Positions 29,321 through 58,004 of a stretch of DNA of 64,000 bases are shown piece after piece. Under the pieces are notes generated by a model that was not told the origin of the DNA, did no database searches, and was given only the letters and a program-made list of their open reading frames with translations. Origin of the DNA: Christiangramia sediminis (GTDB lineage Bacteria; Bacteroidota; Bacteroidia; Flavobacteriales; Flavobacteriaceae); contig NZ_JAJBZG010000004.1 of assembly GCF_020552705.1 (NCBI RefSeq), forward strand, positions 1-64,000, read 5' to 3'. Position 1 is the stretch's first letter. Every line of letters starts with the position of its first letter. The position numbers and the translations under genes are program-made.

Positions 29321-29869
29321 TTATATATAATCTTGAGATGTTTTATTGCTAATTTTCGATGCAGGAACTCCTAATACCGTCGAATCTTTCGGAACATTTG
29401 TTATAACTAAAGAATTAGCTCCAATTACTGAATTGTCGCCAATTTCAATCGGTCCAGCTATTACAGAATTCACGCCTATATATACATTATTTCCAATCTT
29501 AGGAACTCCTCTATTATTCTTTCTCCCACTAACACCAATGGTCACTCCTTGAGAAACATTACAATTGTCACCGATAATTGCCCGGCTATTTATTATTACA
29601 CCCCCAAAGTGCCCGATATAAAATTCTTTTCCAATTTTAGCTGAATATGGTATAGAAATCCCCGTAAGAATTTCAATTATTTTCTGAAGAAAAACACCGG
29701 CAATTAACAGTATCCGTTTTAGAGGTTTTGGAAGGCTGGATTTAAAAATTCCGTTACTCATTCTATAAATAAAAATTGCCCAAAGACTTTGTTGAGTCAA
29801 TAAAAGAGTTATGGAAGATTTCCCACTATACTCTTTATATTTTTTTAAATCATCTCTAAAGCGCGGCAT
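29321..29869 (-). CDS. Serine acetyltransferase-like hexapeptide acyltransferase
   Basis: 182 residues. The C-terminal two thirds are left-handed beta-helix hexapeptide repeats (NCNVSQGVTIGVSG, NVYIGVNSVIAGPIEIGDNS, ending VLGVPASKIS) with the CysE-like HFGGVIINSRAIIGD. Relatives in polysaccharide loci O-acetylate sugars; in CysE the acceptor is serine. The position amid glycosyltransferases favours sugar acetylation. The N-terminal 60 residues contain a hydrophobic segment. Confidence 0.82.
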   Translation of the reverse strand: MPRFRDDLKKYKEYSGKSSITLLLTQQSLWAIFIYRMSNGIFKSSLPKPLKRILLIAGVFLQKIIEILTGISIPYSAKIGKEFYIGHFGGVIINSRAIIGDNCNVSQGVTIGVSGRKNNRGVPKIGNNVYIGVNSVIAGPIEIGDNSVIGANSLVITNVPKDSTVLGVPASKISNKTSQDYI

Positions 29870-29889
29870 TCAAAACTCAATTTTATATT

Positions 29890-30690: not shown

Positions 30691-31090
30691 ATTGCGTTTC
30701 CAGGTTTATCTAAAAATAATATTGTAATCATTAAGATTATATTCAATAAATGATTTCCAGTTTAATTTTCAATGGCCTCATTTTTATAAAATTGACAGGA
30801 GATTCTTTTCAAATCTATTCTTTTTTACTTAATCAATGATATGCAGTACAATAACTATAGCATTTTTTTTGAAAAGTTAAATATCACTTGCCTCCACTGA
30901 TCTAAGAAATTTTACTTTTGTTAAGTAGATCTTTTCTGTATATATTATTTAAAGGCTTAATTTTCTGAAGTGACGTTTCAACAGATTTAAAACCTATCTA
31001 TCATCCTTTTATTCCAGGAGAAAGAAAAGGATAACTGTTGTTGAACATTATTAAAGTAACACAATATATAGCAGTTAAAGTAAAAATGTT
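30691..31090. other. AT-rich gap without recognisable gene
   Basis: 400 bases. No conserved frame, tRNA or inverted repeat was found. A plus-strand TACTTTTG at 30913-30920 matches the -7 pattern but points into the antisense strand of the next gene and is probably chance. The gap coincides with a change between methyltransferase and GT2 genes and may be a scar of gene exchange. Confidence 0.5.
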
Positions 31091-32107
31091 TTACTGCATT
31101 TTTTCATTTTTCCTTGCAAAAGGTTTTTTAATCATTAAACTCCACCATCCTATAAATCTACCAAAACTCTCAGTTAAAGCTTCCATTCTATTTTTTGTAT
31201 TAAAAATATTACCTAACCTAATCAAAGAAAGTAAAAAAGAGGTGCTATTCCATTTTATTCTTGCTTTTAAGCTGGGATTTGGGTTTTTTACCCTCCAAAC
31301 ATACCAGCCATTTCTTACCACCATTTTTCCATACTTGAATTTATTTGGTCTGCCTGCTACATCATGATGATGTTCTATCCTAGCTGCAGTATTAACATAC
31401 AATTTTCCCATTCGAGAGGTACGTAAAGAAAAATCGGCATCCTCATATAAACCATAACCTTCAAAGTATTTAGAAAACCTAATTTTATCAAAGACTATTC
31501 TTTTGTAAGAGGCTATACCTCCCATAAGCAATTCAACCTCATAAATCTTATCGCTAGGGGGCAAAAAGCCTATTGAATATCCATGAGAAAAATCTGGCAT
31601 AATTCCTGGTTTTTCATCGGGTGCCAAACCAAATTTTCTTCGCAAAGAAAACCGGGCCCCTTCTTCTCTAACCCAGCCGTCAAAAAAATATTCCTTTTCG
31701 CAAGGTGTATAGCTTTCTTCAACTTTTCTCCATCTAGTTTCATTAGATATATAACCAGACACACCCAAAGCTTCGGGAACCTGTCGATACACTTTTAGTA
31801 TTTCCTCGAAGTAATGAGTTGAGACTACTGTATCATCATCCAGAAAAAAAATGATCTCAGATTTTATCGAAGTTTTAGAAATTCCAAAATTCCTTTGCCT
31901 GGTTAATCCCCGGTCTTTTTCTTTTACCTGGTAGTATTTTAAATTCGCATAGGACTGTTCATTAAGTATATTCTTTGTTCTATCATCCTCTGAACCATCA
32001 ATAATTAAAACTTCATTAGGATGCATAGTCTGAATGGACACTGATTCCAATAAATTAATCAAAGAGTGAGGTCTCTGATAAGTACAAATGATAAGACTGA
32101 AATACAT
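31091..32107 (-). CDS. Glycosyltransferase family 2
   Basis: 338 residues, GT-A fold. Starts FSLIICTYQRPHSLINLLES, with the metal-binding DDD in EIIFFLDDDTVVS (near residue 92) and the late acidic motif GLYEDADFSLR (near 225) typical of an inverting GT2 base. The C-terminal region is basic and aromatic, suited to membrane contact. Donor and acceptor unknown. 49 bases separate it from the next upstream gene. Confidence 0.87.
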   Translation of the reverse strand: MYFSLIICTYQRPHSLINLLESVSIQTMHPNEVLIIDGSEDDRTKNILNEQSYANLKYYQVKEKDRGLTRQRNFGISKTSIKSEIIFFLDDDTVVSTHYFEEILKVYRQVPEALGVSGYISNETRWRKVEESYTPCEKEYFFDGWVREEGARFSLRRKFGLAPDEKPGIMPDFSHGYSIGFLPPSDKIYEVELLMGGIASYKRIVFDKIRFSKYFEGYGLYEDADFSLRTSRMGKLYVNTAARIEHHHDVAGRPNKFKYGKMVVRNGWYVWRVKNPNPSLKARIKWNSTSFLLSLIRLGNIFNTKNRMEALTESFGRFIGWWSLMIKKPFARKNEKMQ

Positions 32108-32156
32108 TGAGAAATTCTAAAAATTAATTTTTGTAGGGAATGGTATTCTTTTGAAA

Positions 32157-33695
32157 TTATTCATATCTCACCCCCCTTTTATTAAGGTTCTGTGCATATA
32201 ACATTGAGCGATTGAATTGTAATATCTTAAAGGGCATTTTAAACACCCTTAATAAAAAGCTACGCCGTGGATTTTTGAAAAGATATAAAAAAAAGTATTT
32301 TGATCGATATTCCTTTATCTGACTTGAGTTAAAACGCTTTATTATACCGTAAAGAATTGTAGGACTTGGCACGGGTCTAATATAACGTACCGGCCTGTCT
32401 AATTCCCAGGCCTGTTTATTTCTTTTTTTCCCTAAGAGCTTAGATTGGATTCCCCAATGCCGATAACCACCTGATGGTGGTTTCAGATGCAGATTAGCCG
32501 AAAAAGGATTAAATACTACCATTGCTCCTTCATGGAATAAGGAAAAACCAAAATCGCTATCCTCTCCATAACCGCCATCAAAATTCACATCATTCCCACC
32601 TAGCCTTTCTACCCAGTCCTTTTTAACACATGAATTAGCATTGCTAAAAGTCTGTGCAGCTCCTACCTTCCAACGATTTTCACCTAGACTAATTAAGGCT
32701 TTTTCTAGTTCTTGAAGTCCATCTGTATGCTTATTAGCCATGATATCCAATCCATTGGTAGCGTTTGCCTTGTAGGTTTGAATTAGTTTAATGTGGTTTT
32801 TTGTAAAATCTGTAGGTATTCGTGTATCATCATCAGCAAAAATTATATAATCTCCCTGGCACCTTTGTATAGCTTCATTTCTAGCCTTACAACTACCCTT
32901 ACTTTTTTGCCAAAATATTTTAAGGTCAAAAGAAAATCTATTTTTAGTATAGATATCGTCCTTCCTGTCCTCCTCTGGTGTAGCATCTACAACAATGATT
33001 TCTTTTACAGGGTATTCCTGTTTATCATAGTCATGCAAAAGCTGTAAAGTATAATTCTGCCGTAACATAGTGGGGATTATTACGCTAATTTCAGGCTTAC
33101 CCTCAATTTCTGCTAATTTCCTGGGGGGAACTATTGGAAATACATTATTCAGCGATTCGGCATTCTTTACATTTAGATATGCATTAATCTCTTTGAATGG
33201 ATGTTTTAAACCTTCTTTCAACAACATGTTTAAAGCATGTTCTCTTTTAAAATTCTTTTTAAAGAACATATATCTATCAAAAGCTGAAATTTCTACGAAT
33301 TCGTTATATGCAGGGTAAAGGCCTTTTACATATAATGGAATACCACCTCCATATCGCAGCATTCGAAATCCCATATCTAATGCAGGCATAACCTCTGACC
33401 TATAATTCTCTGGAAACCCGTCAAAAAGCTCCCACACTTCTTTTCTTACTACAAATTGTTTTGGATTTATTCTCCAATTAACTGCGATTTTTAGATGCGT
33501 GATATCATTTAAGAACCACCAAAAAACAGCGATTTGATATACCAGTTCAGGGAAGATGTCTTTAAACCCCTGGTCGAGGGAACTATGCCACAAATCGCCT
33601 GGTCCTTTAGCCAGTTCATCAAGCATTTCTAATTGAGGATCACCACGGTATAGCAGGGTATTTCCGTTACTGGCCTTATATTCCTTAAGATCCAT
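32157..33695 (-). CDS. Glycosyltransferase family 2 with extra N-terminal half-domain
   Basis: 512 residues from ATG 33695 (MDLKEYKASNGN); an upstream start at 33737 would overlap the neighbour by 53 bases instead of 11. Residues about 200-430 form a complete GT2 domain: PEISVIIPTMLRQNY, DYIIFADDDTRIPTDF and YGEDSDFGFSLFHEG. The first 190 residues contain NPKQFVVRKEVWELFDGFPE and ALDMGFRMLRYGGG, which resemble the C-terminal half of a GT2 domain without the nucleotide-binding half. It may be a degenerate second transferase domain or an acceptor-binding module. Confidence 0.8.
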   Translation of the reverse strand: MDLKEYKASNGNTLLYRGDPQLEMLDELAKGPGDLWHSSLDQGFKDIFPELVYQIAVFWWFLNDITHLKIAVNWRINPKQFVVRKEVWELFDGFPENYRSEVMPALDMGFRMLRYGGGIPLYVKGLYPAYNEFVEISAFDRYMFFKKNFKREHALNMLLKEGLKHPFKEINAYLNVKNAESLNNVFPIVPPRKLAEIEGKPEISVIIPTMLRQNYTLQLLHDYDKQEYPVKEIIVVDATPEEDRKDDIYTKNRFSFDLKIFWQKSKGSCKARNEAIQRCQGDYIIFADDDTRIPTDFTKNHIKLIQTYKANATNGLDIMANKHTDGLQELEKALISLGENRWKVGAAQTFSNANSCVKKDWVERLGGNDVNFDGGYGEDSDFGFSLFHEGAMVVFNPFSANLHLKPPSGGYRHWGIQSKLLGKKRNKQAWELDRPVRYIRPVPSPTILYGIIKRFNSSQIKEYRSKYFFLYLFKNPRRSFLLRVFKMPFKILQFNRSMLYAQNLNKRGVRYE

Positions 33696-34830
33696 TACTA
33701 AGTATTTTTTTATAGAATTCAATATTTTGTGAAGCAACCACTTCAGCAGAAAATAATTCTTTAACTCTTTCTCTAGCTGCTTTCCCCATCAATCTGCTCA
33801 AATCTTCATTTTTTAGTAGCTCAAAAATCTTATCTGCATACTTATTATGATCTTTGGGATCTACTGCAAAACCTGTTTCTCCATTGATTATTACTTCTTT
33901 GGCCCATCCAATATCAGAAGTAACAAGTGGTTTTTCCATTGCCATTGCCTCCAGCCAGGTCATGGGTAAGGCTTCTGCAAAACTCGGCAAAACTACTACT
34001 CCGGCGCTATCCACCTGGTTAAGAACATCATGGTAAGATATTTCACCTAAAAATTTTACTTTCGCTATAGCTTCAGGAGAAAGTATTTGTTTAATAATGT
34101 TTATAGTTGAATTCGAGGTTTTTTTATCGACCACATCTTTTCCTGCAAATACCAATTCAGCTTCGGGTATAACTTTATTTACGATATTAAAAATTTCGGC
34201 CAGCTCAATAACTCCCTTTTTCCTAATGATACTTCCAAAATAAAGTATCCTATTTTTTTTAATATCATCAGTTATAGGCTTAAAAAATAGAGTATTAACA
34301 GAGTTCGGAATAACCACTATCTCTTTTTTCAACCTAAAAATTTCTCTGGTTTTCTCTGCTGTAAACTTACTTACAGAGATTAAGTGATCTGCACCCTTTA
34401 GAGCATTTTTTTCAAACCAGAAATTTTTTCTTTTCTGTTCTCTTTGCTCGAGATGACAAAAATAAGCATCGCTACCGTTCATTCTTATAACCAGAGAACA
34501 ACGAATTTTCATAAAGGCCGTAATACCTGTCCAATCTGGAGCTTCGATTGCATCTATCTTCTCAATTGTAATATATTTGTTTAGATAATTCTGAAGAAAT
34601 TTTCTATAAAGGTACCATCCCATCAATCGAAACCTGCGCTGCTTTATTAGATGAAATTTAATTCCATTTTCCTCAAAAACATCATCATCTTCCTGGCCGT
34701 ATATAAACAAAGAAACCCTAACCCCCTTCTTAACCAAAGATTCTACCATATTTTTGATACTTGTTCCTATTCCTGCGGCGGCATTAGTGCGAACGTGGGG
34801 ATATTCTGGAGTGAGAAAGCCTAAATGCAT
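33685..34830 (-). CDS. Glycosyltransferase family 4
   Basis: 381 residues, GT-B fold. LGFLTPEYPHVRTNAAAGIG opens the acceptor half; ISVSKFTAEKTREIF, VVIPNSVNTLFFKP and ILYFGSIIRKKGVIELAEIF mark the donor half; PSFAEALPMTWLEAMAMEKP carries the conserved Glu pair region. It has all segments of an active enzyme. It overlaps its neighbours on both sides by about 10 bases, so three genes are translationally coupled. Confidence 0.9.
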   Translation of the reverse strand: MHLGFLTPEYPHVRTNAAAGIGTSIKNMVESLVKKGVRVSLFIYGQEDDDVFEENGIKFHLIKQRRFRLMGWYLYRKFLQNYLNKYITIEKIDAIEAPDWTGITAFMKIRCSLVIRMNGSDAYFCHLEQREQKRKNFWFEKNALKGADHLISVSKFTAEKTREIFRLKKEIVVIPNSVNTLFFKPITDDIKKNRILYFGSIIRKKGVIELAEIFNIVNKVIPEAELVFAGKDVVDKKTSNSTINIIKQILSPEAIAKVKFLGEISYHDVLNQVDSAGVVVLPSFAEALPMTWLEAMAMEKPLVTSDIGWAKEVIINGETGFAVDPKDHNKYADKIFELLKNEDLSRLMGKAARERVKELFSAEVVASQNIEFYKKILSNGS

Positions 34831-35897
34831 GGAAGCAGTTTTAAGTGATTAGATAACATTTCCTCTAAATTGAATCTCTTTTCTATCAAATTGTGTACTG
34901 GCTGGCTTATCTCTTTTTTTCCTGTCATTATATCCTGTAAAATAACAATTAACTGTTCTGTATTTTTTGGCTCGAATATATAGCCATTCATATTGTCATT
35001 GATGATCTCCAGGTTACCTCCAACCGGAGTGGTAATAACGGGAACATTAGATGCCAGGCTTTCTAGAATAGACAGACTAAAACATTCCATATAGGTGGGT
35101 TGAATTAAAAAGGAATAATTTTGAAATAATTCTGGTAGTCGCGAAGTGCTACCTCGTAGTTCTATTATACCATTTAAGTTATTAAAAACCACCTGTTCTT
35201 TTAGTTCATTTTCTAATGGCCCTTCTCCATATACATCAATTTTCATTTTCTCTTTAATACCGTCAGGCAACCTCCCAACAGCCATAATCAGGTCTGAAAT
35301 ACCTTTTGATTTACGCAAATGTGAGGCGACTATAAACCTTCCATGATTTATCTGTTCCCTTTTTTTATAGCACTTGAAATCTATTCCATTATAAACAACA
35401 CTTGTCTTTTTCATTAAGGCTTTTCCATAATCCTTAATGATGGCATCGGCAGTATATTGGGAGACTCCTGCAAAATGATCTATATAAGAGGCGTAGAGCA
35501 TTCCTCTTACTTTGTTTTTAAGACGTTTTTTTTGGGAGAAACCTTCCAAAGGGCGCGGATTATGATCTACAGCAATAATATATGCTGGTGTTCTTTCTTT
35601 AATCTTTTTAAAGAAGGGCGTACATAATGCAATAAAATGGGTTACTACAACTGAGTAATCTTTTTTCAAGTGTAAATGTTTAGTAAAAAAGCTTTCCAAA
35701 GCTTCGGTTCCCGCTAGACTTACATCTAAGTCTGAATGAAAATCAGGATGATTATTCCCCGCGAAAAACCACTTTACATAACATCCTTTTCTTTTGAGTT
35801 CTTTATCGTAAGCTCTAAAGAACCTGTCCATTCCCCCTATTCGGTCAGGTTTTAATTCATAATTACAAACTACGGCGATATGTTGCTCACTACTCAA
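34821..35897 (-). CDS. Glycosyltransferase family 4
   Basis: 358 residues, GT-B fold. Segments: DRIGGMDRFFRAYDKELKRK near the N-terminus, HFAGVSQYTADAII, VYNGIDFKCYKK, GRFIVASHLRKSKGISDLI, and TYMECFSLSILESLASNVPV with TPVGGNLEII after it. Donor unknown. It overlaps the upstream gene by four bases and the downstream gene by ten. Confidence 0.88.
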   Translation of the reverse strand: MSSEQHIAVVCNYELKPDRIGGMDRFFRAYDKELKRKGCYVKWFFAGNNHPDFHSDLDVSLAGTEALESFFTKHLHLKKDYSVVVTHFIALCTPFFKKIKERTPAYIIAVDHNPRPLEGFSQKKRLKNKVRGMLYASYIDHFAGVSQYTADAIIKDYGKALMKKTSVVYNGIDFKCYKKREQINHGRFIVASHLRKSKGISDLIMAVGRLPDGIKEKMKIDVYGEGPLENELKEQVVFNNLNGIIELRGSTSRLPELFQNYSFLIQPTYMECFSLSILESLASNVPVITTPVGGNLEIINDNMNGYIFEPKNTEQLIVILQDIMTGKKEISQPVHNLIEKRFNLEEMLSNHLKLLPCI

Positions 35898-37309
35898 ACC
35901 TCTATTATCTTCTTTAATTTTTTTACAATTCGCATACTGGTTCCTTCCAGACTCTTACCTATTTGAAGATCCAGCAACTTCATTCGGTTAGCTTTATTAA
36001 GATGCGGATCCATAAGATAGGTATTGATCGCTTCAATAAGTTCCGCTTTATTTTTTGAAATTTGAACAGCTCCACTTTGCACTACTTTCTCATAATGACC
36101 AAACTTAAGAAAACGCTGGTCATTATATAGCCCATTTTCTTCGTTTCCAAAAACCGGATTGATAACCGGCTTATTGAACAACATAAAATCAAGGCTCATG
36201 GTAGAACACATATTAAGGTTCAGGTCTGTGTATTCCAGAAGTGCTCTTAGATCTTTAATATCCTGAACTCTGGGAATACGTTGTGACCATGGTTCAGGAT
36301 GTTCTTCCCTGGCAACAAACCAATCGGGGAAATTCCAGCTTATAAATGGATATTTTTCTTTTAAATAAAGAAATCTTTCAGGCTCTTCAGCAGGTGAAGT
36401 ACGCACAATGAAATTCACTTCCTCAGAAACTTTGTCTGCCTGTATCGCTGAAGCTATGGCTTCAATATAAAGCGCGTCATTCTGGCTGGTAGAAACATCT
36501 CCGCAGCTATAACAAATAGTTTTTTTTGTGGGGTCTAATTCAAATTTCTTAAAGAAATCATTTTTAGTTGATTCATATTCGGGCATTATATATGGTTCAA
36601 ATTGTGGGGTACCTACAACCTCCACATCGTCTGCCTTTGTAGCTGGGTAGAAATGAATCAACTCTTCTTTCATTAGATCACTCCATACCAGGTAAAAATT
36701 AAATCCCGCAGCCATACGACCTTTTGAAGCCAGGTTATCCCAACTAAAAATAAAAGAACTGGTTTTGATCCCAAGATTCTGAGCTGCAGCAACTAAAGGT
36801 ACTACATATGGGGGACGCTGATGGGTAAAAAAAAGAAGTCCTGGCTCATTATTCTTTAAAATGCCTAAGCATTCTTTGGTAACCTTATGATTTCTCAAAG
36901 ATCTCTGTTGTCTCTTTTCCAGAATCCTGATAAATTTTTCAGAATGAAATAAATTTGTGATCCTGTAAATAAGACGGATTGCCTTACCCCGGTTAGATTC
37001 GCTATTTGACTTATTAGCTTTTAAATTATCATTAATTCCGAAATAATCTTTGTGTAGTTGTAAATGTGCTACTTCTTTGAATTTTCTCCAAAACCAGGTT
37101 TGGAATGGCTCAACATACACCGGTAGCTCAGTTATTTTTAAATTATTATAACTATTGTGACTATATACTTTTTCTGGTAAACCGGAATAAATAATTACTT
37201 CTTCAAAATTTTTGACTGCCTCAGCAAGAAAATTACTTAAAATAAAATTTCTATAACCAACGCCATCTGTAATTACCAAACCGAGTTTTCCTGAGTTTTT
37301 TTCCTTCAT
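35894..37309 (-). CDS. Glycosyltransferase-like protein (CDP-glycerol transferase/GT-B superfamily)
   Basis: 471 residues. It does not match GT4 motifs. FTHQRPPYVVPLVAAAQNLG then SSFIFSWDNLASKGRM and VVGTPQFEPYI resemble surface-carbohydrate proteins with a GT-B fold related to CDP-glycerol glycerophosphotransferases; LRALLEYTDLNLNMCSTMSLD fits the donor-site helix. Role inferred: transfer of a sugar or polyol phosphate. It is the first gene of the long minus-strand run and has a TATTTTTG promoter box (37329-37336) 20 bases upstream. Confidence 0.7.
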   Translation of the reverse strand: MKEKNSGKLGLVITDGVGYRNFILSNFLAEAVKNFEEVIIYSGLPEKVYSHNSYNNLKITELPVYVEPFQTWFWRKFKEVAHLQLHKDYFGINDNLKANKSNSESNRGKAIRLIYRITNLFHSEKFIRILEKRQQRSLRNHKVTKECLGILKNNEPGLLFFTHQRPPYVVPLVAAAQNLGIKTSSFIFSWDNLASKGRMAAGFNFYLVWSDLMKEELIHFYPATKADDVEVVGTPQFEPYIMPEYESTKNDFFKKFELDPTKKTICYSCGDVSTSQNDALYIEAIASAIQADKVSEEVNFIVRTSPAEEPERFLYLKEKYPFISWNFPDWFVAREEHPEPWSQRIPRVQDIKDLRALLEYTDLNLNMCSTMSLDFMLFNKPVINPVFGNEENGLYNDQRFLKFGHYEKVVQSGAVQISKNKAELIEAINTYLMDPHLNKANRMKLLDLQIGKSLEGTSMRIVKKLKKIIEV

Positions 37310-45249: not shown

Positions 45250-46146
45250 ATGAGAAAGAATTCAACCTCAAAACATGCACCACTAGTTTCCATTTGCATA
45301 CCAACATACAATGGTGATAAATATCTAAAAGAGGCATTAGAATCAGTTCAAAAACAATCTTATGAAAATTTAGAAGTTATTTTTAGCGATGACAATTCTA
45401 AAGATCAAACAATGAAGATTATTTTAGAATTTAAGAAAAGATTTCATTCTCCAGTTTATATTTACCACCATACGCCCAAAGGAATTGGATCAAACTGGAA
45501 TAACTGTGTAAAAAGAGCGAATGGGAAATATATTAAATTTCTTTTTCAAGATGATATTTTACTCCCTGAATGCGTTGAAAAATTAGTTTTACTAGCAGAA
45601 AAAGATAAACAGGTAGGTCTTGTTTTTTGTAGAAGAAATTTCTTGTTTGAACAAGAAAAGAGTAAGTTCAACGCATGGCTCAAATATCATAAAGAATTAC
45701 ATGTTCATTGGAAGAGTATCATTTTTAGAGATAATGATATTATCAGTGGTAAAAAATTATTGAGGGACAACCATATTTTAAGTTTTCCACAAAATAAAAT
45801 TGGTGAACCATCTGCAGTTTTAATTAGAACGGAATGTTTTAACCGACTTGGATATTTTGAGGAGAGTTTACAACAGGCATTAGACGTGGAGTACTGGCTA
45901 CGAATAATGAAAAGATATAAAGTAGGTTTTTTAGAAGATCAATTGATAAGTTTCAGAATACATCAAGATCAGGCCACTCAATTGAATCAAAGCAAAGGAA
46001 TTAATGAAAAAGAATTATTAGAAAAGCTATGTTATAAAAGAGTTTTTTGGCACTTAAATTCTTCTGTTAGATGGAAACTATTTAAAAGCATAAACCGCAA
46101 CCACCCAATTCGCAGAATATCCTATCTATATAATAAAAAGAAATGA
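45250..46146 (+). CDS. Glycosyltransferase family 2
   Basis: 298 residues, GT-A fold. VSICIPTYNGDKYLKEALES, VIFSDDNSKDQT, FLFQDDILLPEC (the metal motif is QDD), and QALDVEYWLRIMKRY. Relatives with FQDD/DVEYW motifs are common in capsule loci. It ends four bases into the next gene. Highly AT-rich. Confidence 0.87.
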   Translation: MRKNSTSKHAPLVSICIPTYNGDKYLKEALESVQKQSYENLEVIFSDDNSKDQTMKIILEFKKRFHSPVYIYHHTPKGIGSNWNNCVKRANGKYIKFLFQDDILLPECVEKLVLLAEKDKQVGLVFCRRNFLFEQEKSKFNAWLKYHKELHVHWKSIIFRDNDIISGKKLLRDNHILSFPQNKIGEPSAVLIRTECFNRLGYFEESLQQALDVEYWLRIMKRYKVGFLEDQLISFRIHQDQATQLNQSKGINEKELLEKLCYKRVFWHLNSSVRWKLFKSINRNHPIRRISYLYNKKK

Positions 46147-47048
46147 TTGCCATTGTTATCCCCTACTTTAAAATTACATTTTTTAAAGAAACTCTGGCTT
46201 CTTTAGCTAATCAAAGTAACAAGGATTTCCACGTTTATATAGGAGATGACAATTCCCCTGAAGACCCATATCCACTGATTAACTTGTATAAGTCTAAATG
46301 CAACCTACAATATAAAAAATTTGATACCAACTTAGGAAGCATTTCGCTGGCTAAGCACTGGGAAAGGTGTATTGAGATGACACGAGATGAAGAATGGATA
46401 ATGCTTTTAGGTGATGATGATGTTCTTAGCTATAATGTCATTGATCAATTTTATAAGCAGTTGAATAAATCTGAAATAATGACAAACGTTATTCGTTTTG
46501 CAAGTTCACCTATTGATGCGAATGGTAAAGAAACCTGGAAGGTTTTTCAGCACCCTGAATATGAATCATCAATTGATTTCTTTTTTAGGAACAGAAGAAG
46601 TTCATTAAGTGAATATGTTTTCAATAAAAATGTATTAAAAGAAAAAGGTTTTCATGATTTTCCAATAGGATGGTGTTCAGATATCCTTGCGGTATTAGAA
46701 GTCTCAAATTTTTCAACTATCAATTCTATAAATAATGCTGTAGTTTACATTAGAAGCTCTTCTATGAACATCTCAAATAAAAAATATAAACAAAGAGAAA
46801 AAGCAATTGCAGCCAAAACCTTTTTACTTTATTTAATCAATAACAAATCTAAAAAATTTACTCGAAGTCAGAGATTAAAATTGATTATTGAGTTAGAAAC
46901 CGAATTAGGAAAGGATAAAAGCTTATCCTTCAAAGATTGGTTTAAATTATTTAGGTTACACCTTTATAATTTTCAATTTTTAACTTTTTTTAAATTTTCA
47001 AGAAGATTTTTCATGCACAGATGGAAATTAATAACCATTAAATGGTAA
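46143..47048 (+). CDS. Glycosyltransferase family 2, tandem paralog A
   Basis: 301 residues, GT-A fold. IAIVIPYFKITFFKETLASL, YIGDDNSPEDPYPLI, WERCIEMTRDEEWIMLLGDD and later GWCSDILAVLE. The next gene encodes a protein matching it through the whole N-terminal half, so the pair is a tandem duplication. The metal motif is LGDDDVL near residue 96. Confidence 0.87.
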   Translation: MIAIVIPYFKITFFKETLASLANQSNKDFHVYIGDDNSPEDPYPLINLYKSKCNLQYKKFDTNLGSISLAKHWERCIEMTRDEEWIMLLGDDDVLSYNVIDQFYKQLNKSEIMTNVIRFASSPIDANGKETWKVFQHPEYESSIDFFFRNRRSSLSEYVFNKNVLKEKGFHDFPIGWCSDILAVLEVSNFSTINSINNAVVYIRSSSMNISNKKYKQREKAIAAKTFLLYLINNKSKKFTRSQRLKLIIELETELGKDKSLSFKDWFKLFRLHLYNFQFLTFFKFSRRFFMHRWKLITIKW

Positions 47049-49668: not shown

Positions 49669-50688
49669 ATGCGCCAAGGCTATAACCCTTATAAAGATAA
49701 TAAAACTAAACCATTACCTTTTTCCCATCAGGTGGTTATACCAGTTTATATTCCGCATCAAAAAGACTATTTTAAAGACTCTTTTCAAATTCTCAAATTA
49801 TGTATAGGTTCCATCTTAAAAACCAGTCATCCTAAAACTTTTATTAGTATTATCGATAATGGTAGTTGCAATGAAGTTTCTGAGTATTTACAAAACTTAC
49901 TAAACTCAGGTGAAATTCAAGAGTTAACCACCACGAAAAACATTGGAAAATTAAACGCTATAATAAAGGCTGTTGCCGGGCAAAATATTCCTTTAGTAAC
50001 CATTACCGATGCTGATATGCTTTTCTTGAGTAACTGGCAAAGTGAGACAGTAAAAGTTTTTAATGCGTTTCCAAAAGCAGGTGTTGTAGGTTTAATTCCA
50101 CAGTTCCTTACTTATCAAAACAAAAGCGAAAATCTGCTATTGGAGCATTTCTGGAATAAAAAACTTCGTTTTATTCCGGTTAAAAATCCGTTTGCCCTTG
50201 CAAAGTTTTACGAGAGTATTGGGTGGGAACCTAATTATTCCCGTGCCAAATTAGATTATATTTTAGGTCTTACCGCTGAAAATGGACATATAGCTTGTGT
50301 AGGTTCTGGACATGCCGTTGCAACATATAGAAGAGAACTATTTAATTTTGATTTTCCACTCTATAATCCTTATAAAATGGGCGGTGGTAGCGAACAAATT
50401 CTGGATGATCTCCCCTTAAAATATGGTTTATACCGTTTCACTACTTATGACAATTATGCATATCATTTGGGGAATGTTTATGAAGATTGGATGCAAAAAA
50501 AATTTTCTACATTAGATTCAGAAGAGAAAGAATTAACTTTAAAGGAAACCCCATTTACAAAAAAGACTGCTAGTGCTTTTTCTCAATTTAAAGAAAAGCT
50601 CATGAATAAAGCTTTAAAGAGTTTTAAAATAAGGATGGTATTTTTAAAACATAAAGGTTTGCCTAAAGAGGTTAGAAAATATTTTTAA
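49669..50688 (+). CDS. Glycosyltransferase family 2-like protein
   Basis: 339 residues. HQVVIPVYIPHQKDYFKDSF, SIIDNGSCNEVSEYL, LTTTKNIGKLNAIIKAVAGQ and VTITDADMLFLSNWQ (metal motif DAD near residue 110). GSGHAVATYRRELF and MGGGSEQILDDLPLKYG take the place of the usual late motif. It is less AT-rich than the genes just before. One-base overlap with the next gene. Confidence 0.83.
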   Translation: MRQGYNPYKDNKTKPLPFSHQVVIPVYIPHQKDYFKDSFQILKLCIGSILKTSHPKTFISIIDNGSCNEVSEYLQNLLNSGEIQELTTTKNIGKLNAIIKAVAGQNIPLVTITDADMLFLSNWQSETVKVFNAFPKAGVVGLIPQFLTYQNKSENLLLEHFWNKKLRFIPVKNPFALAKFYESIGWEPNYSRAKLDYILGLTAENGHIACVGSGHAVATYRRELFNFDFPLYNPYKMGGGSEQILDDLPLKYGLYRFTTYDNYAYHLGNVYEDWMQKKFSTLDSEEKELTLKETPFTKKTASAFSQFKEKLMNKALKSFKIRMVFLKHKGLPKEVRKYF

Positions 50689-51623
50689 TGAATAAAACTA
50701 ACCACATTCCCCAAATTGAAAATATCACCCTTGTTATTTCTACAAAGGATCGTATTGATGAATTAAGAGAAACACTTGATAAATTAAGCTTATTATTAAA
50801 GGCCGGAATGCCGGTAATAATTTGCGATGATGGTTCAACAGATGGGACTTCTCATTTTTTAAAAGCCAATTATCCTGAAATTAGAGTTATATGCAATATT
50901 GAAAGCCGGGGCTTAATCTTTAGCCGTAACAGGTTACTAAATATGGTTGAAACAGACTTTGCTATTTCACTAGATGATGATGCTAATTTTTTGAGTGATC
51001 ATCCTCTTTTGGAAATAGGTAAGTATTTTGATGCAAATCATAATTGTGCGGTGACCTCTTTCCGGATATTTTGGTCCAGGGAAATTCCTGAAGTCACTTA
51101 TTCGACGGATAAACCTATAAGGGTCAAAAGTTTTGTTGGTTGCGGTCATGCCTGGCGTATGAAAGCTTGGAGAGATATCCCCAATTATCCAGACTGGTTT
51201 ATTTTCTATGGTGAAGAGGATTTTGCCTCCTATCATCTTTTTAAAAAAAACTGGGAAGTTCATTACCTACCACAAGTTTTAGTGCATCACCGGGTGAACG
51301 TAAAGGCAAGAAGAACTGAAAAAGATTATAGTCAAAGATTAAGATATTCTTTAAGAGCAGGATGGTTCTTGTATTTGCTTTTTTTACCATTAAAGTTCAT
51401 CCCAAGAAAATTAGCCTACTCTATTTGGATTCAATTAAAAATAAAAGTTTTTAAAGGTAATAAGCAGGCTCTGAAAAGTCTTCTGCTGGCAGGAAAAGAT
51501 CTTCTCTTTAACCTACCTAGGTTAATAGCTTTTAGAAAAAAGCTGTCCGCAAGAGAATATAATATCTATATTGGTTTATCGGATACAAAAATTTATTGGC
51601 ACCCATCCAGGGAAAAAAGATGA
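50688..51623 (+). CDS. Glycosyltransferase family 2
   Basis: 311 residues, GT-A fold. NITLVISTKDRIDELRETL, PVIICDDGSTDGTSHFLK, FAISLDDDANFLSD near residue 93, and FYGEEDFASYHLFKK near 180. HHRVNVKARRTEKDY and a hydrophobic helix follow, suggesting membrane contact. Stop and start with the FkbM-type gene overlap (ATGA). Confidence 0.88.
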   Translation: MNKTNHIPQIENITLVISTKDRIDELRETLDKLSLLLKAGMPVIICDDGSTDGTSHFLKANYPEIRVICNIESRGLIFSRNRLLNMVETDFAISLDDDANFLSDHPLLEIGKYFDANHNCAVTSFRIFWSREIPEVTYSTDKPIRVKSFVGCGHAWRMKAWRDIPNYPDWFIFYGEEDFASYHLFKKNWEVHYLPQVLVHHRVNVKARRTEKDYSQRLRYSLRAGWFLYLLFLPLKFIPRKLAYSIWIQLKIKVFKGNKQALKSLLLAGKDLLFNLPRLIAFRKKLSAREYNIYIGLSDTKIYWHPSREKR

Positions 51624-52534
51624 AAAAACAACTTCTAAAATATATTCTTCCATCGAGTGTACAAAAAAGACTTGCATTAAGAATAAACCATTGGAAGCAT
51701 TGCTTTTTTTTAAATGATCTAAGAAGGAAAATAATTACTTACTATAGCGCTAGAAAGCATTTGACATTAGAAGAAAAAGAGATTCTGAATTTTCTAAAGC
51801 TAAATCCACTCCATGTCTTTCCATATAGTTTTGTAAAAAAATATAATTTTAATGAAATTCAAATATTTTATGATGAAATTAAGGATTTGAAATACGTCAA
51901 TTATTATCAAAAAAAATTATATTTTAAAAGAAGAATGTCAGAGCAGGCAATAAAAAGTTTATTTATTGGATTACTTATTGATCAAGATGAGAATTCTCCA
52001 CATAGATACTTAGATAAAAAATTCCAGGTTGATAATACAGATATTGTTGTGGATGCCGGTGCGGCTGAAGGTAACTTCTCCCTTTTGATTATTGATTACG
52101 TTCAAAAAATTATTCTTTTTGAATCTGATCCAGAATGGATAGAACCTTTAAATGCTACTTTTGAGCCATGGAAAGACAAGGTTGAAATTATTCAAAAAAA
52201 AATATCTGATAAAACTGATGAATTTGAAATAAAACTCGATGACTTTTATGAGCACGAAAAATTTACTTTTATTAAAGCAGACATAGAAGGCTACGAATCT
52301 AAATTAATTGAAGGACTAAGAGGCACGCTAAAAAAAGAAATACCACTAAAGCTAGCCATTTGCACATATCACCAACAGGAAGATTTTATGAGTTTTTCTC
52401 GTATTCTACAAAAAAATCATTTCTATTTAAGTAGTCCCAGAGGTTATATGATATTTTATTATGACAAGGATATCCAGCCACCTTTTCTTAGAAAAGGGAT
52501 TTTAAGAGCTGAAAAAGAAATAGCCAGTACATGA
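51620..52534 (+). CDS. FkbM-family methyltransferase
   Basis: 304 residues from ATG 51620, the start set by the ATGA overlap with the previous stop; a start 24 bases earlier (51596) is open but overlaps more. DIVVDAGAAEGNFSLLIID (near residue 142) is the SAM loop; FIKADIEGYESKLIEGL near 222 is the FkbM signature with DIEG. FkbM enzymes O-methylate small molecules and sugars. The first 120 residues are Lys- and Tyr-rich and unfamiliar. Overlaps the next gene by four bases. Confidence 0.8.
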   Translation: MKKQLLKYILPSSVQKRLALRINHWKHCFFLNDLRRKIITYYSARKHLTLEEKEILNFLKLNPLHVFPYSFVKKYNFNEIQIFYDEIKDLKYVNYYQKKLYFKRRMSEQAIKSLFIGLLIDQDENSPHRYLDKKFQVDNTDIVVDAGAAEGNFSLLIIDYVQKIILFESDPEWIEPLNATFEPWKDKVEIIQKKISDKTDEFEIKLDDFYEHEKFTFIKADIEGYESKLIEGLRGTLKKEIPLKLAICTYHQQEDFMSFSRILQKNHFYLSSPRGYMIFYYDKDIQPPFLRKGILRAEKEIAST

Positions 52535-53340
52535 TAAAAGAAACAACTGCCTTAATAACATCCGTTTCTAATTTTGATCTTTATCAAAAAACTTCTCAAT
52601 TTTTCCCTAATAATATCCCTCATTACGTAATAGATGGAAGAAATGGCATGCATGGTCTGGCCAGCATTTTTTACACCTTCAAAAAATTAAAAAATAAAGG
52701 TATTGAATGGCTTATAATGGCAGATGAAGATGTGATCTTTCAAAAATCTGAACAAGTTTTTGAATTAATTGAATACATGAAAGAAAACGATTATCGAGTA
52801 GCAGGAGTTCGGGAAGGTGGAGTTATTTCTCATAAACCTTTTAATCCTTACGCGATAAATACTTTTTTTTCTATTCTTCATTTTTCCGAAATTGAAAAAA
52901 TTTTTAATAGAAGAGAAATTAAAAATCAACAATATATCGAACCAAATGAATTCAATGATGAATTGAAAGGTCTAAAAATGGATTTCGATATTGAAAGTTT
53001 ATATGAGCCCTATTATTGTTTTTATTTCTGGTTAAAAAGGAAAGGATTTAAATTTCTATATCTTAATGTAAGTACTGACTTTCCCCATGACAATTTTACT
53101 AGTTCGGTCTATGATCCAGCTGGAAATCTATTATTATACCATACCTGGTATGCCAGAGCTTATGGCCAAAATGAAAAACATACAAAACGTATAAACAAAA
53201 TTTTAAATACAATCCCAAAATCTGCAAGGTCTTCTTTTTCCCCGGTTGTATTTAAAGATCCGCATTTCAGGTGGAAACTTAGAATGAAGAAGAATTTTAG
53301 AAAAATTAAAATGAAATTAAACAAATTAGGATGTTACTAA
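52531..53340 (+). CDS. Unassigned protein coupled to neuB; possible glycosyltransferase
   Basis: 269 residues, not assigned to a family by eye. Starts KETTALITSVSNFDLYQKTS; WLIMADEDVIFQ (near residue 70) looks like the DxD strand of a GT-A enzyme; YRVAGVREGGVISHKPFNPY and YYCFYFWLKRKG follow; NLLLYHTWYARAYG and a Lys/Arg-rich tail end it. No signal peptide. It overlaps neuB by ten bases and the FkbM gene by four. A role in transferring the nonulosonic acid is an inference from this coupling. Confidence 0.6.
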   Translation: MIKETTALITSVSNFDLYQKTSQFFPNNIPHYVIDGRNGMHGLASIFYTFKKLKNKGIEWLIMADEDVIFQKSEQVFELIEYMKENDYRVAGVREGGVISHKPFNPYAINTFFSILHFSEIEKIFNRREIKNQQYIEPNEFNDELKGLKMDFDIESLYEPYYCFYFWLKRKGFKFLYLNVSTDFPHDNFTSSVYDPAGNLLLYHTWYARAYGQNEKHTKRINKILNTIPKSARSSFSPVVFKDPHFRWKLRMKKNFRKIKMKLNKLGCY

Positions 53341-54326
53341 TAGCGGAAATAGCACAGGCACATGAAGGCAGCCTTGGAATTGCCCATTCTTATATTGATG
53401 CCCTTGCAAAAACTGGCGTAGACGCGGTAAAGTTTCAAGTACATATCGCTGAAGCTGAAAGTAGCATCTATGAGCCTTTCCGTATTAATTTTTCCAAACA
53501 GGAGAATAGCCGTTATGATTATTGGAAGCGTATGGAATTTTCTACTGAACAATGGCGGGAATTAAAAACTCATTGTGATAAAGTTAATATTGAGTTTATG
53601 GCTTCCCCTTTCAGTAATACCGCTGTTGACCTTCTTGAAGAACTTGACGTAAAACGTTATAAAATTGGTTCTGGTGAGGTTAATAATTTTTTATTACTAG
53701 AAAAAATTGCGAGGACTGGCAAACCGATTATCCTATCTTCTGGGTTGAGCTCTTTTGAGGAACTGGATGATACCGTAAAATTTTTAAAAAATAAAAATAT
53801 AGAGTTTTCTATTTTGCAATGCACCACCTCCTACCCCACCGTACCTGAGAACTATGGTCTTAATGTAATCAAGGAGATGAAAAAAAGGTACGAAGTCCCC
53901 ATTGGATATTCCGACCACTCCGCAAAATTAGAAACCGGTATTGCAGCGATCACGCTTGGCGCAGAAATTCTTGAATTTCATGCAGTATTTAATCGGGAAA
54001 TGTTTGGCCCCGACGCCTCTTCTTCTCTGGAATTAAATGAAATCAAACAATTGGTATCTTCCATAAGAAATTTAGAAAATGCCCTGCAGCACAAAGTAGA
54101 CAAGGATGATAACTCCTCCTTATTGGATTTAAAGGAAATTTTTGAGAAGTCATTGGCAGTAAATAAAGATTTACCATTGGGTCATATAATCACTTTTGAA
54201 GATCTGGAATCAAAGAAACCAAGAGGATATGGAATTCCTGCTTTTCAATTTCAACAAGTAATAGGGAAAAGTATAAAGAGTGAATTAAAAAAGTGGGATT
54301 TCCTAAAGGAAGATCATATTCATTGA
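53331..54326 (+). CDS. neuB: N-acetylneuraminate (nonulosonic acid) synthase
   Basis: 331 residues. NeuB family: condenses phosphoenolpyruvate with ManNAc (or a modified hexosamine) to a nine-carbon acid. TIM barrel: IAEIAQAHEGSLGIA, DAVKFQVH, FMASPFSNTAVDLLEELDV, KIGSGEVNNF, ILSSGLSS, LQCTTSYPTVPENYGLN and GYSDHS are the family hallmarks. A short SAF/antifreeze-like domain (about 275-331, KKPRGYGIPAF) closes it. It follows the unassigned 52531 gene with a ten-base overlap. Confidence 0.92.
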   Translation: MLLIAEIAQAHEGSLGIAHSYIDALAKTGVDAVKFQVHIAEAESSIYEPFRINFSKQENSRYDYWKRMEFSTEQWRELKTHCDKVNIEFMASPFSNTAVDLLEELDVKRYKIGSGEVNNFLLLEKIARTGKPIILSSGLSSFEELDDTVKFLKNKNIEFSILQCTTSYPTVPENYGLNVIKEMKKRYEVPIGYSDHSAKLETGIAAITLGAEILEFHAVFNREMFGPDASSSLELNEIKQLVSSIRNLENALQHKVDKDDNSSLLDLKEIFEKSLAVNKDLPLGHIITFEDLESKKPRGYGIPAFQFQQVIGKSIKSELKKWDFLKEDHIH

Positions 54327-54412: not shown

Positions 54413-55570
54413 ATGCCCAAACGAAAGATATGTGTTGTAGTAACCGCCAGGCCTTCATACAGCAGGATAAAGACTGCACTTACTGCCATTCAGGCACATC
54501 CAGAACTGGAACTTCAACTGGTAATTGCTGGCTCTGCACTACTTGACAGGTATGGAAACGCTATCGATTTTATCGAAAAAGATGGGTTTCCAATTGCTGC
54601 CAAAGTATTTATGGTGCTCGAAGGAGAAAACCCAACCACAATGGCAAAAACTACAGGTCTGGGAGTTATGGAATTAACCAATGTTTTTTATAATCTTAAA
54701 CCAGATGCCGTAATTACGATTGCTGATCGTTTTGAAACCATTGCTACATCCATAGCCGCAGCCTACCAGAATATTCCATTGGTCCACCTTCAGGGAGGAG
54801 AAGTTACCGGTAGTATAGATGAAAAAGTTAGACATGCCAACACAAAACTTGCAGATCTGCATTTGGTATGTACAGAAGATGCAAAGCAAAGAGTAATTAA
54901 ATTGGGTGAATATCCTCATAAGGTTATTAATACTGGCTGTCCTTCTATAGATCTCGCAAAACAGGTTGCCCAGGATCCTGAGCTTGATTTTGATCCGGTA
55001 AAAAAGTATGGTGGTGTTGGACCAGAATTTTCCTGGATAAATGGATACATGGTAATAATGCAACATCCGGTAACTACAGAGTATAAAGACGCAAAAGCCC
55101 ATATTTTGAAAACTCTGAAAGCAGTGAAAGCTTCAGGTTATCCTGCATTTTGGTTTTGGCCTAACGTGGATGCAGGTTCTGATGGAACCTCAAACGGAAT
55201 CAGATCTTTTCGCGAACTGGAGAAGCCAGAAAACATACATTTTTTTAAGAATATGAATCCCATAGATTTCTTGAAATTAATGAAGAATGCCAGGGTTTTG
55301 GTTGGAAATTCCAGTGCCGGAATAAGGGAATGTTCTTATCTTGGTATCCCAGTAGTAAATATAGGCAACCGTCAAAATCGTAGAAAACGTGCGCAAAATG
55401 TTACAGATGTTGATTACAATGAGCGTCAAATTCTTTCAGCGATAGAGGAAGGAATTAACAGGGAACATTATCCAGCTTCAGAAATATATGGCGTTGGAGA
55501 GTCGGGAAATAAGATTGCTGAGATACTTGCAACCGTAGAGCTATCGTTCTCCAAGACAATTTCATATTAA
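54413..55570 (+). CDS. neuC: Hydrolysing UDP-N-acetylglucosamine 2-epimerase (NeuC/LegG type)
   Basis: 385 residues, GT-B-like fold. It converts UDP-GlcNAc to ManNAc plus UDP (or the analogous legionaminic step). RKICVVVTARPSYSRIK starts it; DAVITIADRFETIATSIAAA, LVHLQGGEVTGSIDEKVRHA and NVDAGSDG...R, then LVGNSSAGIRECSYLG are diagnostic. Second gene of neuB-neuC-neuA; 86 bases after neuB. Composition is closer to the core genome than the GT2 block. Confidence 0.92.
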   Translation: MPKRKICVVVTARPSYSRIKTALTAIQAHPELELQLVIAGSALLDRYGNAIDFIEKDGFPIAAKVFMVLEGENPTTMAKTTGLGVMELTNVFYNLKPDAVITIADRFETIATSIAAAYQNIPLVHLQGGEVTGSIDEKVRHANTKLADLHLVCTEDAKQRVIKLGEYPHKVINTGCPSIDLAKQVAQDPELDFDPVKKYGGVGPEFSWINGYMVIMQHPVTTEYKDAKAHILKTLKAVKASGYPAFWFWPNVDAGSDGTSNGIRSFRELEKPENIHFFKNMNPIDFLKLMKNARVLVGNSSAGIRECSYLGIPVVNIGNRQNRRKRAQNVTDVDYNERQILSAIEEGINREHYPASEIYGVGESGNKIAEILATVELSFSKTISY

Positions 55571-55602: not shown

Positions 55603-56298
55603 TTGAAAATCTTAGGAATTATACCGGCGCGTGGAGGAAGCAAAGGTATCCCGGGCAAGAACATTAAGCTTCTGGGAAAGAAACCACTCCTGGAGTACAC
55701 TGTTGATGCCGTAAGATCATCCAGTCTTCTAGATCGTTGTATTCTTAGCTCTGAAGATAATAATATTATCCAGATTGCCCATCAGCTTGGACTGGATGTA
55801 CCTTTTAAGCGTCCAGAGAACCTTGCAGATGACAATAGTACTTCACTGGATGTCATAAGACATGCTATCGATTTTTTCGAATCAAAGAATGATTTTTTTG
55901 ACGCAGTTTGCCTATTACAGGTAACCTCACCTTTCCGGGAAAAATCCCTTATCGATAAGGCTATTTTAAAATTTATAGAATCCCGGGCTGATTCCCTTAT
56001 TTCAGTCAGGGAAGTTCCTTCAGAATATAATCCACACTGGGTATTTGAGGAAGCTGAAACTAATCTTTTGAAGATTGCCACCGGGGAATCAGAAATTATT
56101 TCACAACGACAAAAACTACCAAAAGCCTATCATAGGGATGGTTCTATATACTTAAGCAAGACTTCTGTGATAAAAAATCAAAACTCCCTATATGGTGAAA
56201 AAATTTCATTCATCGATAATACCGGAAGTAGTTATGTAAATATCGATGAGCCTGCGGACTGGAAAAAGGCGGAAAACTTATTAAAATCGATAAGATAA
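55603..56298 (+). CDS. neuA: CMP-nonulosonic acid synthetase
   Basis: 231 residues from a TTG start (55603), chosen because it gives MKILGIIPARGGSKGIPGKN, the exact family beginning. It activates the sialic-type acid with CTP. LLQVTSPFREKSLIDKA, LISVREVPSEYNP and RDGSIYLSKTSV match CMP-NeuAc synthetases. The last base of its stop is the first of asnB. With NeuC and NeuB it completes the route from UDP-GlcNAc to a CMP-activated acid. Confidence 0.92.
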   Translation: MKILGIIPARGGSKGIPGKNIKLLGKKPLLEYTVDAVRSSSLLDRCILSSEDNNIIQIAHQLGLDVPFKRPENLADDNSTSLDVIRHAIDFFESKNDFFDAVCLLQVTSPFREKSLIDKAILKFIESRADSLISVREVPSEYNPHWVFEEAETNLLKIATGESEIISQRQKLPKAYHRDGSIYLSKTSVIKNQNSLYGEKISFIDNTGSSYVNIDEPADWKKAENLLKSIR

Positions 56299-58004
56299 TG
56301 TGTGGTATTGCAGGAATTATTTCAGAAAACCCTAAAGAAACAGCTTTAAAAACCATGTTGAAAAAGCAGTCTCATCGGGGTCCAGACCATACGGGAGTAT
56401 TTATGGACAAGGGTTTTGCTAGATTAGGACATAATCGCCTCTCCATAATTGATCTCTCCCCAGAAGCTAATCAACCATTTTGTGATCTATCTAAAAGATA
56501 TTATCTCACTTTCAATGGGGAAATTTACAACTATAAAGAGCTAAAACTGGAATTAAAACATGTTTATAGATTCCAGACCTCCTCTGACACAGAAGTATTA
56601 TTAGCCGCATTTATGCACTGGGGAAAAGAATGCCTTCATAAATTAAATGGAATGTTTTCTTTTGCAATTTGGGATACTCAGGAAAAGACCTTATTCGCTG
56701 CAAGAGACAGATTTGGAGTAAAGCCTTTTTATTATTTTTCAGGTAATGGGTTTTTTTATTTTGCCAGTGAAATTAAGAGTATACTATCCGTGACCAAATT
56801 TAATTCTCCAAATAAAAAGGTCTGGGCGAATTATTTTAAATATGGATCCTATGGCATGTCCCATGAAACTTTTTATAAAGATATAAATCAACTTCCGGGA
56901 GGCTATTCCCTTGAATATTCTAAAGGAACCTTATCTATATCCAGATGGTACAATTTTGAGGCACGTATTAAAGACACCCCTAATAACTACGAATTCCACC
57001 AGGCAAAAGAATATTACCTTGAAATGCTTCGCGATAGTATTACACTCAGATTTCGAGCCGATGTTCCTGTCGGTTTCAATATTAGCGGTGGGGTAGATAG
57101 TTCTCTTCTTTTAGCACTTGTAAATCTATCCAAGGAAAAAAGCAATATCAATGCCTATACTTTTTATACCGGAGATAAACGCTATGATGAATTACCCTGG
57201 GTTAAAGAAATGATCTCATATACAGATAACCCTCTCCATAAGGTGAAATTTGTAGCCTCAGAGGTTGAAAAGGATAACGAATTTATCAGTAAAATTCAGG
57301 ATGAACCTTTTGGAGGTATACCTACCCTGGCTTACTCCAAAATTTTTAAGCAAGCTCATAATGATGGTATTAAAGTTCTTCTGGATGGTCAGGGGATGGA
57401 TGAGCAATGGGCCGGATATGATTATTATTTAAATTCAAGAAATACTACAATTCAGGGAACAGGAAATTTGAGCCCATTCCGCAAAAATGTATTAAACCCG
57501 GAATTTGCTAAATATTCGGTAAAACCTGAATATCCTGAACCATTTGAAAATAGACTACAGAATCTCCAATATCGTGATCTATTTTACACAAAAATACCAA
57601 GAGCTCTAAGGTTTAATGATCGGGTTTCCATGGCTTATAGCACTGAACTAAGAGAGCCTTTTTTAGATCATCGCCTGGTAGAATTCGCATTTGCTCAGCC
57701 CCAAAATTTTAAGATTAAAGGGGAAGTCCAGAAATTTTTAATCAGAGAAATATTAAGCCAAATTACCTCGAGAGAGATCAGCCATGCTCCTAAACGCCCA
57801 TTACAAACCCCGCAAAGGGAATGGCTGGGGGATGAACTTAAAAAGTATGTTTCTGAAAATCTTGAAAATCTTAAATCATGTGTTTTAGCAGATTGGTTTG
57901 ACCATCAGGAAATTGAAAAAGAATGGAAAAAATATCTGGCCGGTGATAATTATAGTAGTTTTCATATCTGGCAGTGGATTAACGCTGCGCAACTTTTGGC
58001 TTAA
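56298..58004 (+). CDS. asnB: Asparagine synthase-type amidotransferase in the polysaccharide locus
   Basis: 568 residues. Class II glutamine amidotransferase with nucleophile Cys2 (MCGIAGIIS), SHRGPDHTG and FNGEIYN, then a synthetase domain with ISGGVDSSLLLAL (near residue 262) and YDELPWVKEM. All catalytic elements are present. Paralogs in glycan loci are thought to amidate uronic acids or other carboxylated sugars rather than aspartate, and the locus makes an acidic sugar; which one applies here is unknown. It is the last gene of the plus-strand operon, converging on wzm across 51 bases. Confidence 0.88.
   Translation: MCGIAGIISENPKETALKTMLKKQSHRGPDHTGVFMDKGFARLGHNRLSIIDLSPEANQPFCDLSKRYYLTFNGEIYNYKELKLELKHVYRFQTSSDTEVLLAAFMHWGKECLHKLNGMFSFAIWDTQEKTLFAARDRFGVKPFYYFSGNGFFYFASEIKSILSVTKFNSPNKKVWANYFKYGSYGMSHETFYKDINQLPGGYSLEYSKGTLSISRWYNFEARIKDTPNNYEFHQAKEYYLEMLRDSITLRFRADVPVGFNISGGVDSSLLLALVNLSKEKSNINAYTFYTGDKRYDELPWVKEMISYTDNPLHKVKFVASEVEKDNEFISKIQDEPFGGIPTLAYSKIFKQAHNDGIKVLLDGQGMDEQWAGYDYYLNSRNTTIQGTGNLSPFRKNVLNPEFAKYSVKPEYPEPFENRLQNLQYRDLFYTKIPRALRFNDRVSMAYSTELREPFLDHRLVEFAFAQPQNFKIKGEVQKFLIREILSQITSREISHAPKRPLQTPQREWLGDELKKYVSENLENLKSCVLADWFDHQEIEKEWKKYLAGDNYSSFHIWQWINAAQLLA

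Follow-up and report, generated by a model that had tools for sequence, protein, structure and literature searches.

The gene at positions 52531-53340 (forward strand) of the window, i.e. the whole 64,000-nucleotide stretch of Christiangramia sediminis DNA analyzed here, very probably encodes, as judged from its predicted structure, a GT-A glycosyltransferase that is probably metal-dependent and belongs to a small undescribed bacterial family. The reading that we consider likely is that this protein (hereafter “the target”) transfers an ordinary sugar from a nucleoside diphosphate (NDP) donor onto a surface glycan bearing a nonulosonic acid (NulO), and that the acid itself is more likely attached via f5, a TagB-like GT-B protein encoded elsewhere in the window. 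This removes the false lead that the neuB-coupled gene is the NulO transferase, and supplies both an undescribed GT-A family from NulO-containing glycan loci of flavobacteria and, in f5, a NulO transferase candidate that accompanies NulO synthases across much of the Flavobacteriaceae and some other families of the class.

Genomic context

The target gene is an intact ORF of 269 codons with an ATG start. As described in the initial annotation, it overlaps neuB by exactly 10 bases (53331..53340, + strand), the neuB ATG lying at 53331-53333 and the target stop codon TAA at 53338-53340, and its product carries both the stretch MADEDVIF (residues 63-70) and a basic, Lys/Arg-rich tail. Just upstream, and sharing 4 bases with the target, is a gene for an FkbM-type methyltransferase (51617..52534, +; an alternative TTG start at 51596 is possible) that scores above the cut-offs of both TIGR01444 (42.2 bits; cut-off 37.7) and PF05050 (24.7 bits; cut-off 22.7). 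Two GT2-type glycosyltransferases (49669..50688 and 50688..51623, both +) and a further GT2 enzyme at 46143-47048 all match PF00535. With its row of GT2 enzymes and its neuB-neuC-neuA genes, the neighborhood is a surface-polysaccharide locus, which also includes an AsnB-like gene, an ABC permease, and Wzc-like and Wza-like proteins, all named from ORF translations only.

The target is followed, in this order, by homologues of NeuB, a NulO synthase (53331..54326, +; 308.5 bits against NeuB_NnaB of NCBIfam, below the cut-off of 399.65), NeuC, a UDP-GlcNAc 2-epimerase (54413..55570, +; NCBIfam score 389.3 bits, above the cut-off of 235.9), and NeuA, a CMP-sugar cytidylyltransferase (55603..56298, +; best model PseF at 149.5 bits, below the cut-off of 205.7). 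The initial annotation considered the CMP-sugar pathway complete, which holds for gene content; these model scores, with the window NeuB below the NeuB_NnaB cut-off, do not fix which acid the pathway yields. Adjoining neuA is the gene for the AsnB-like amidotransferase (56298..58004, +), a candidate acid modifier on account of its position and of the Tannerella forsythia cluster: by analogy, it may modify the acid with an amide or amidino group, a role proposed for T. forsythia Tanf_01265 in the available text of PMC6120980. Strong matches to this family were found in 22 of the 40 neuB-centered loci described below, and in many loci the AsnB-like gene sits between neuA and f5.

Outside the window, the same genome encodes a second NeuB-like synthase (contig C3:149498-150478) with 33% identity to the window NeuB; the organism may therefore make a second NulO or a further glycan. 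At 29%, the G+C content of the target gene is lower than that of the window (35.5%) and of neuB and neuC (37-40%), hinting at a separate acquisition.

Predicted fold and conserved residues

The AlphaFold2 model of the target adopts a GT-A fold with high confidence (pLDDT 94.9, pTM 0.91). The Foldseek matches listed were led by LARGE1, majastridin, LH3, and MNT2, with E-values from 3.5e-6, and the best 50 VIA rows listed, which include the chondroitin synthase CHSY3, fringe, LARGE1, LgtC, and B3GalT, spanned Z-scores of 10.1-12.2 over 149-198 residues at 5-15% identity (best match listed: Z 12.2, rmsd 3.6, 182 residues). Matches listed by the two tools were mostly GT-A glycosyltransferases, several with UDP and Mn named in their titles, and we take most of them to use UDP-sugars and to have a DXD metal site. 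A comparison with known glycosyltransferase folds had been proposed in the initial annotation, and it places the target in the GT-A class, nearest to metal-dependent, mainly UDP-sugar transferases. Solved sialyltransferases were absent from the 50 target rows listed by each of Foldseek and VIA, which excludes nothing.

Across a 32-sequence family alignment, 29 columns are invariant, including D65, E66, D67, E159, H204, W206, and R209. The DXD motif D65-E66-D67 (codons 52723..52731, +) follows the hydrophobic strand WLIMA, and a strand is predicted at residues 60-64, directly before the motif, as expected of a DXD. This motif is invariant in 32/32 sequences, with D.D at the same alignment column throughout, and also in the 14/14 sequences of another alignment. 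Invariant in both alignments as well are E159 (codon 53005..53007, +; within EPYYCFYFW), a candidate catalytic base, and H204 (codon 53140..53142, +; within HTWYAR), a candidate C-terminal metal ligand; a conserved C-terminal His is presumably common to the target and to GT-A DXD transferases of UDP-sugars. The assignment as a GT-A transferase follows from the confident fold and the invariant DXD, and the predicted fold, the DXD, E159, and H204 together bear out the word “transferase” in the initial annotation.

LARGE1, LH3, fringe/B3GalT, majastridin, and LgtC hence share with the target the predicted fold and a DXD after a hydrophobic strand, but at only 5-15% identity in the rows listed and without any significant sequence match. 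Searches of the target against Pfam, NCBIfam, and PHROG models returned no match up to an E-value of 1, and nothing significant was obtained against the PDB either by sequence or by profile. PF00535 matched a single one of 14 family members up to E 1 (E 0.14), and not the window protein. The GT2 enzymes of the same locus (46143-47048, 50688-51623) belong to the same class and cluster, and the best local profile alignments laid the target DED on the DXD of each of three GT2-type sets drawn from target loci, but profile similarity to these sets was not significant (probability 0.7-1.5%).

Distribution of the target family

A scan of species genomes identified 30 target loci at 42-56% identity, all in genera of the Flavobacteriaceae or in unassigned Bacteroidota or Flavobacteriales; given these homologues and the 29 invariant columns, the target is a real gene and not a chance ORF. 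It was detected in 5 of 198 genomes of relatives (a sample that includes its own genome), 17 of 397 genomes of the family (four of them short marginal matches), 6 of 395 genomes of the order (three short and marginal), and 3 of 395 genomes of the phylum. In the samples searched, the target family is nearly confined to Flavobacteriaceae.

A phage or plasmid origin was considered and set aside, as tblastn gave no match in phages or plasmids, and none of 86 pattern hits to the target in viral contigs was confirmed. The best viral fold matches of the target model were two uncharacterized phage proteins from Myoviridae sp. ctgsk7, A0A8S5PYD0 (E 5e-14, 20% identity, TM 0.66 by query length) and A0A8S5PY24 (E 2e-9), both closer than any solved structure among the matches listed.

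Linkage to nonulosonic acid synthesis

Combining the species scan (30 loci), a further set (18 loci), and the window, and dropping three duplicates (L065, L067, and L069), we obtained 46 non-redundant target loci. A NeuB homologue lies within the stretch read in 41 of these, and the target therefore belongs to the same glycan locus. Among the five others, L025 and L030 lie on contigs some 4 kb long, the latter still with NeuA; L019 (14.8 kb) reaches a contig end on one side and has f5; L074 has no neu genes nearby and neuB-like genes elsewhere in its genome; and L077 holds a distant homologue, whose surrounding ORFs include no visible glycan gene and whose genome gave no neuB match. This distant homologue (L077:9631-10401, minus strand) retains the DED and the stretch HTWHSRYY, and adjoins a urocanase-like gene. 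Because other glycosyltransferases share the linkage to NeuB, the families of the window proteins at 50688..51623 and 49669..50688 being found in 29/46 and 20/46 target loci, respectively, linkage indicates membership of the locus and not action on the acid.

The initial annotation reasoned from the coupling to neuB that the two products act together, an argument weakened by the finding that only 4 of 48 target-family copies have neuB as the next gene downstream. The gene immediately before the target is methyltransferase-like in 22 of the 48 copies, with an overlap in 13, so that coupling would implicate the methyltransferase no less than NeuB. Of seven of these upstream proteins compared with Pfam, three scored at or above the cut-off of a methyltransferase model, and the other four gave matches under it.

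f5 as a candidate nonulosonic acid transferase

The protein f5 (35894..37309, minus strand; 471 aa) is a TagB/PF04464-like GT-B protein. Its PF04464 score of 15.6 bits and that of the copy in L014 (21.4 bits) are both below the cut-off of 22.1; TagB itself belongs to PF04464 (PMC11666461, available text). The AlphaFold2 model of f5 (pLDDT 90.8) displays a GT-B fold, with matches that include TarL (Z 20.3), TagF (19.3), and WaaA (18.7), while NeuC/WecB-type epimerases scored higher (to 23.4). No sialyltransferase appears among the 50 structure rows listed for f5, which excludes nothing, and a profile comparison between the target and f5 families gave no similarity (probability 0.2%).

Among the 198 genomes of relatives, f5 was detected in 61, of which 59 have neuB (Fisher p = 9e-20, uncorrected for relatedness). 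Of the 62 f5 hits, 54 have a neuB-like gene no more than 12 kb away. A set of 40 neuB-centered loci was drawn from target-negative genomes, and the absence of the target there is by choice; in 35 of them the NeuB is at least 60% identical to that of the window, two of the 37 available target-less NeuB hits with at least 56% identity having been left out. f5 is present in 29 of these 35 loci, which is a fairer count than 34/40 because the other five (L152-L156) were chosen knowing that they carry it. In a sample of 203 genomes from the phylum, 19 encode f5. Across the 18 f5 loci outside the genome under study, for which 20 kb was read, a neuA/B/C-like gene (>50 bits) was found in 16 and NeuB (>50 bits) in 14, two of them outside the family of the window (L173, L178); the target was found in none of the 18. 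By contrast, a neuB-like gene, distant synthases included, is present in 102 of the 198 genomes, and the target is missing from 97 of these. All five target-bearing genomes also have neuB, and where NeuB shares 56% identity or more with that of the window (41 genomes), the target is present in 4 and missing from 37. Because f5 tracks the NulO synthase more closely than the target does, it is, by analogy with the enzymes discussed next, more likely to be the NulO transferase, and is the strongest candidate in the window.

TagB-domain proteins occur beside NulO genes (PMC7439481, available text). Deletion of T. forsythia GtfS or of its UB4 counterpart led to loss of the terminal acid, according to the available text of PMC6388019 and PMC6120980, and these proteins (GtfS, 445 aa; TFUB4_00887, 442 aa) resemble f5 in length and type. 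Like Bacillus subtilis SpsB, they are encoded in a gene neighborhood similar to that of the target, but are GT-B/TagB-like and not GT-A. Several observations stand against f5 as the NulO transferase. Legionaminic acid (Leg) was still present after deletion of SpsB, a TagB-domain protein encoded beside the Leg genes, which is therefore dispensable for Leg transfer (PMC7439481). From SpsB and its T. forsythia counterparts (PMC7439481, PMC6388019), f5 would be expected to share D/E-D/E-G and HP motifs, but these are not conserved in the f5 family ([DE][DE]G in 3/27 members; HP in at most 5/27 at any column), nor is (K/R)XHP (6/27, at most four at one column), which is missing from the window copy. 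In addition, no f5 match was obtained in 43 of the 102 genomes that have a neuB-like gene, and f5 lies within 12 kb of only 22/95 more distant NeuB-like hits, vs 32/41 close NeuB hits. To our knowledge, transferases for bacterial NulOs outside the classic sialyltransferase families are still poorly mapped, which makes f5 a more useful lead than the target. A literature search on flavobacterial NeuB loci returned no paper, and we do not deny that such papers exist.

In the window, the genes at 21732-37309 (minus strand) and 37448-58004 (plus strand) form two divergent blocks, while relatives keep neuB/C/A, asnB, f5, f9, f6, f8, and f14 together, suggesting a rearrangement.

Donor, acceptor, and alternative functions

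The initial annotation proposed that the target is itself the NulO transferase, and this we consider improbable. Such an enzyme would use the CMP-NulO made by the neuABC products, and would represent a new kind of GT-A, DXD-bearing NulO transferase. The glycosyltransferase fold, the adjacency to neuB, and the presence of NeuB in nearly all target loci are all in its favor, as is the lack of a classic enzyme for the task: the initial annotation had seen no recognized sialyltransferase, and searches of the genome with the Pfam models Glyco_transf_52, CST-I, PM0188, and A-2_8-polyST, which we take to represent GT52, GT42, GT80, and GT38, respectively, found nothing, although the first three of these negatives are weak because only the A-2_8-polyST search had a working positive control. 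Against it, bacterial sialyltransferases and Kdo transferases of GT29, 38, 42, 52, 80, 99, and 107, which would act on the neuABC product, have a conserved (K/R)XHP motif for CMP binding (available text of PMC12887879), whereas the target has a DXD and none of its 32 family members carries (K/R)XHP; bare HP occurs in 2/32, at two different columns, and D/E-D/E-G, a motif defined for bacterial sialyltransferases (PMC6388019, available text), in at most 2/32 at any one column. The (K/R)XHP motif is not absolute, its K/R being replaced by Ser in the Kdo transferase of PMC12887879. The available text of PMC6388019 also describes DXD enzymes as working with nucleoside diphosphate sugars and divalent cations, and the motif as usually absent from sialyltransferases, but since T. 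forsythia NulO transferases carry a DXD as well, its presence does not exclude a CMP-NulO donor. The absence of the target from most neuB-like genomes and from all 18 f5-centered loci, 16 of them with a neuA/B/C-like gene, likewise weighs against the proposal, and f5 provides a better candidate within the same window. A narrower version, in which a metal-dependent DXD GT-A CMP-nonulosonate transferase would act alongside f5, or in its place, and form a second NulO linkage in some flavobacteria only, is about as improbable; we know of no metal-dependent GT-A/DXD architecture for a CMP-nonulosonate donor.

The strong one-way association of the target with neuB would also be consistent with action on the acid, and the target may alternatively use the NulO as its acceptor, adding a neutral sugar onto an acid that would then be internal in the repeat. 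This would agree with a near-constant location in NulO loci and with a fold typical of NDP-sugar enzymes, but we regard it as unlikely: other glycosyltransferases of the locus are equally linked, so that linkage does not single out the target, and the agreement between the target tree and NeuB type is hardly closer than with shuffled labels. On this tree, the larger NeuB group required 13 changes (shuffled mean 15.1; 88/500 shuffles as low) and the window-like group 10 (shuffled mean 12.1; 52/500), with 23/200 shuffles as low for all NeuB groups together, and a quicker tree gave 66/500 and 21/500 for the two groups, respectively. Close relatives of the target therefore sit with different synthases. 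The f5 tree follows NeuB type only somewhat better (larger group, 8 changes, 24/500; window-like group, 8 changes, 102/500; short type, 1 change, 1/500), and NulO type was dropped as a discriminator between the target and f5, as it neither separates them nor favors f5. The NeuB of L001, in a group far from that of the window, passes the NeuB_NnaB cut-off (400.8 vs 399.65). Finally, the target could be something other than a sugar transferase acting on a glycan, such as a nucleotidyltransferase-like protein, a regulator, or a protein that modifies the acid. It has no annotated domain, and the matches listed include nucleotidyltransferases, namely the CMP-Kdo synthetase KdsB (VIA, Z 10.2) and GMPPA/GMPPB (Foldseek), so that the fold alone is no proof of an NDP-sugar transferase. 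With a confidently predicted GT-A fold, mostly glycosyltransferases among the matches listed, and an invariant DXD, Glu, and His, we nevertheless find this extremely improbable.

We thus favor an ordinary NDP-sugar transferase, as the invariant DXD points to such a donor and (K/R)XHP is missing throughout the family. The distant homologue with DED and HTWHSRYY also supports an ordinary sugar, since its own genome gave no neuB match. The target would then transfer a sugar from a UDP-, GDP-, or dTDP-sugar to an oligosaccharide under construction by the surface-polysaccharide locus, presumably the same glycan that receives the NeuB/NeuC/NeuA acid. D65 and D67, probably with H204, would hold the metal-diphosphate, and E159 is a possible base. 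The methyltransferase-like protein encoded next to the target in many relatives may O-methylate the same sugar or a neighboring one, and the NulO would be attached by f5 rather than by the target.

Some glycan loci encode more than one member of the target family, with two paralogues in L004 (3959-4882, 7989-8792) and three in L016 (697-1524, 7995-8792, 9493-10308). Several paralogues per locus fit glycosyltransferases making different linkages, as expected.
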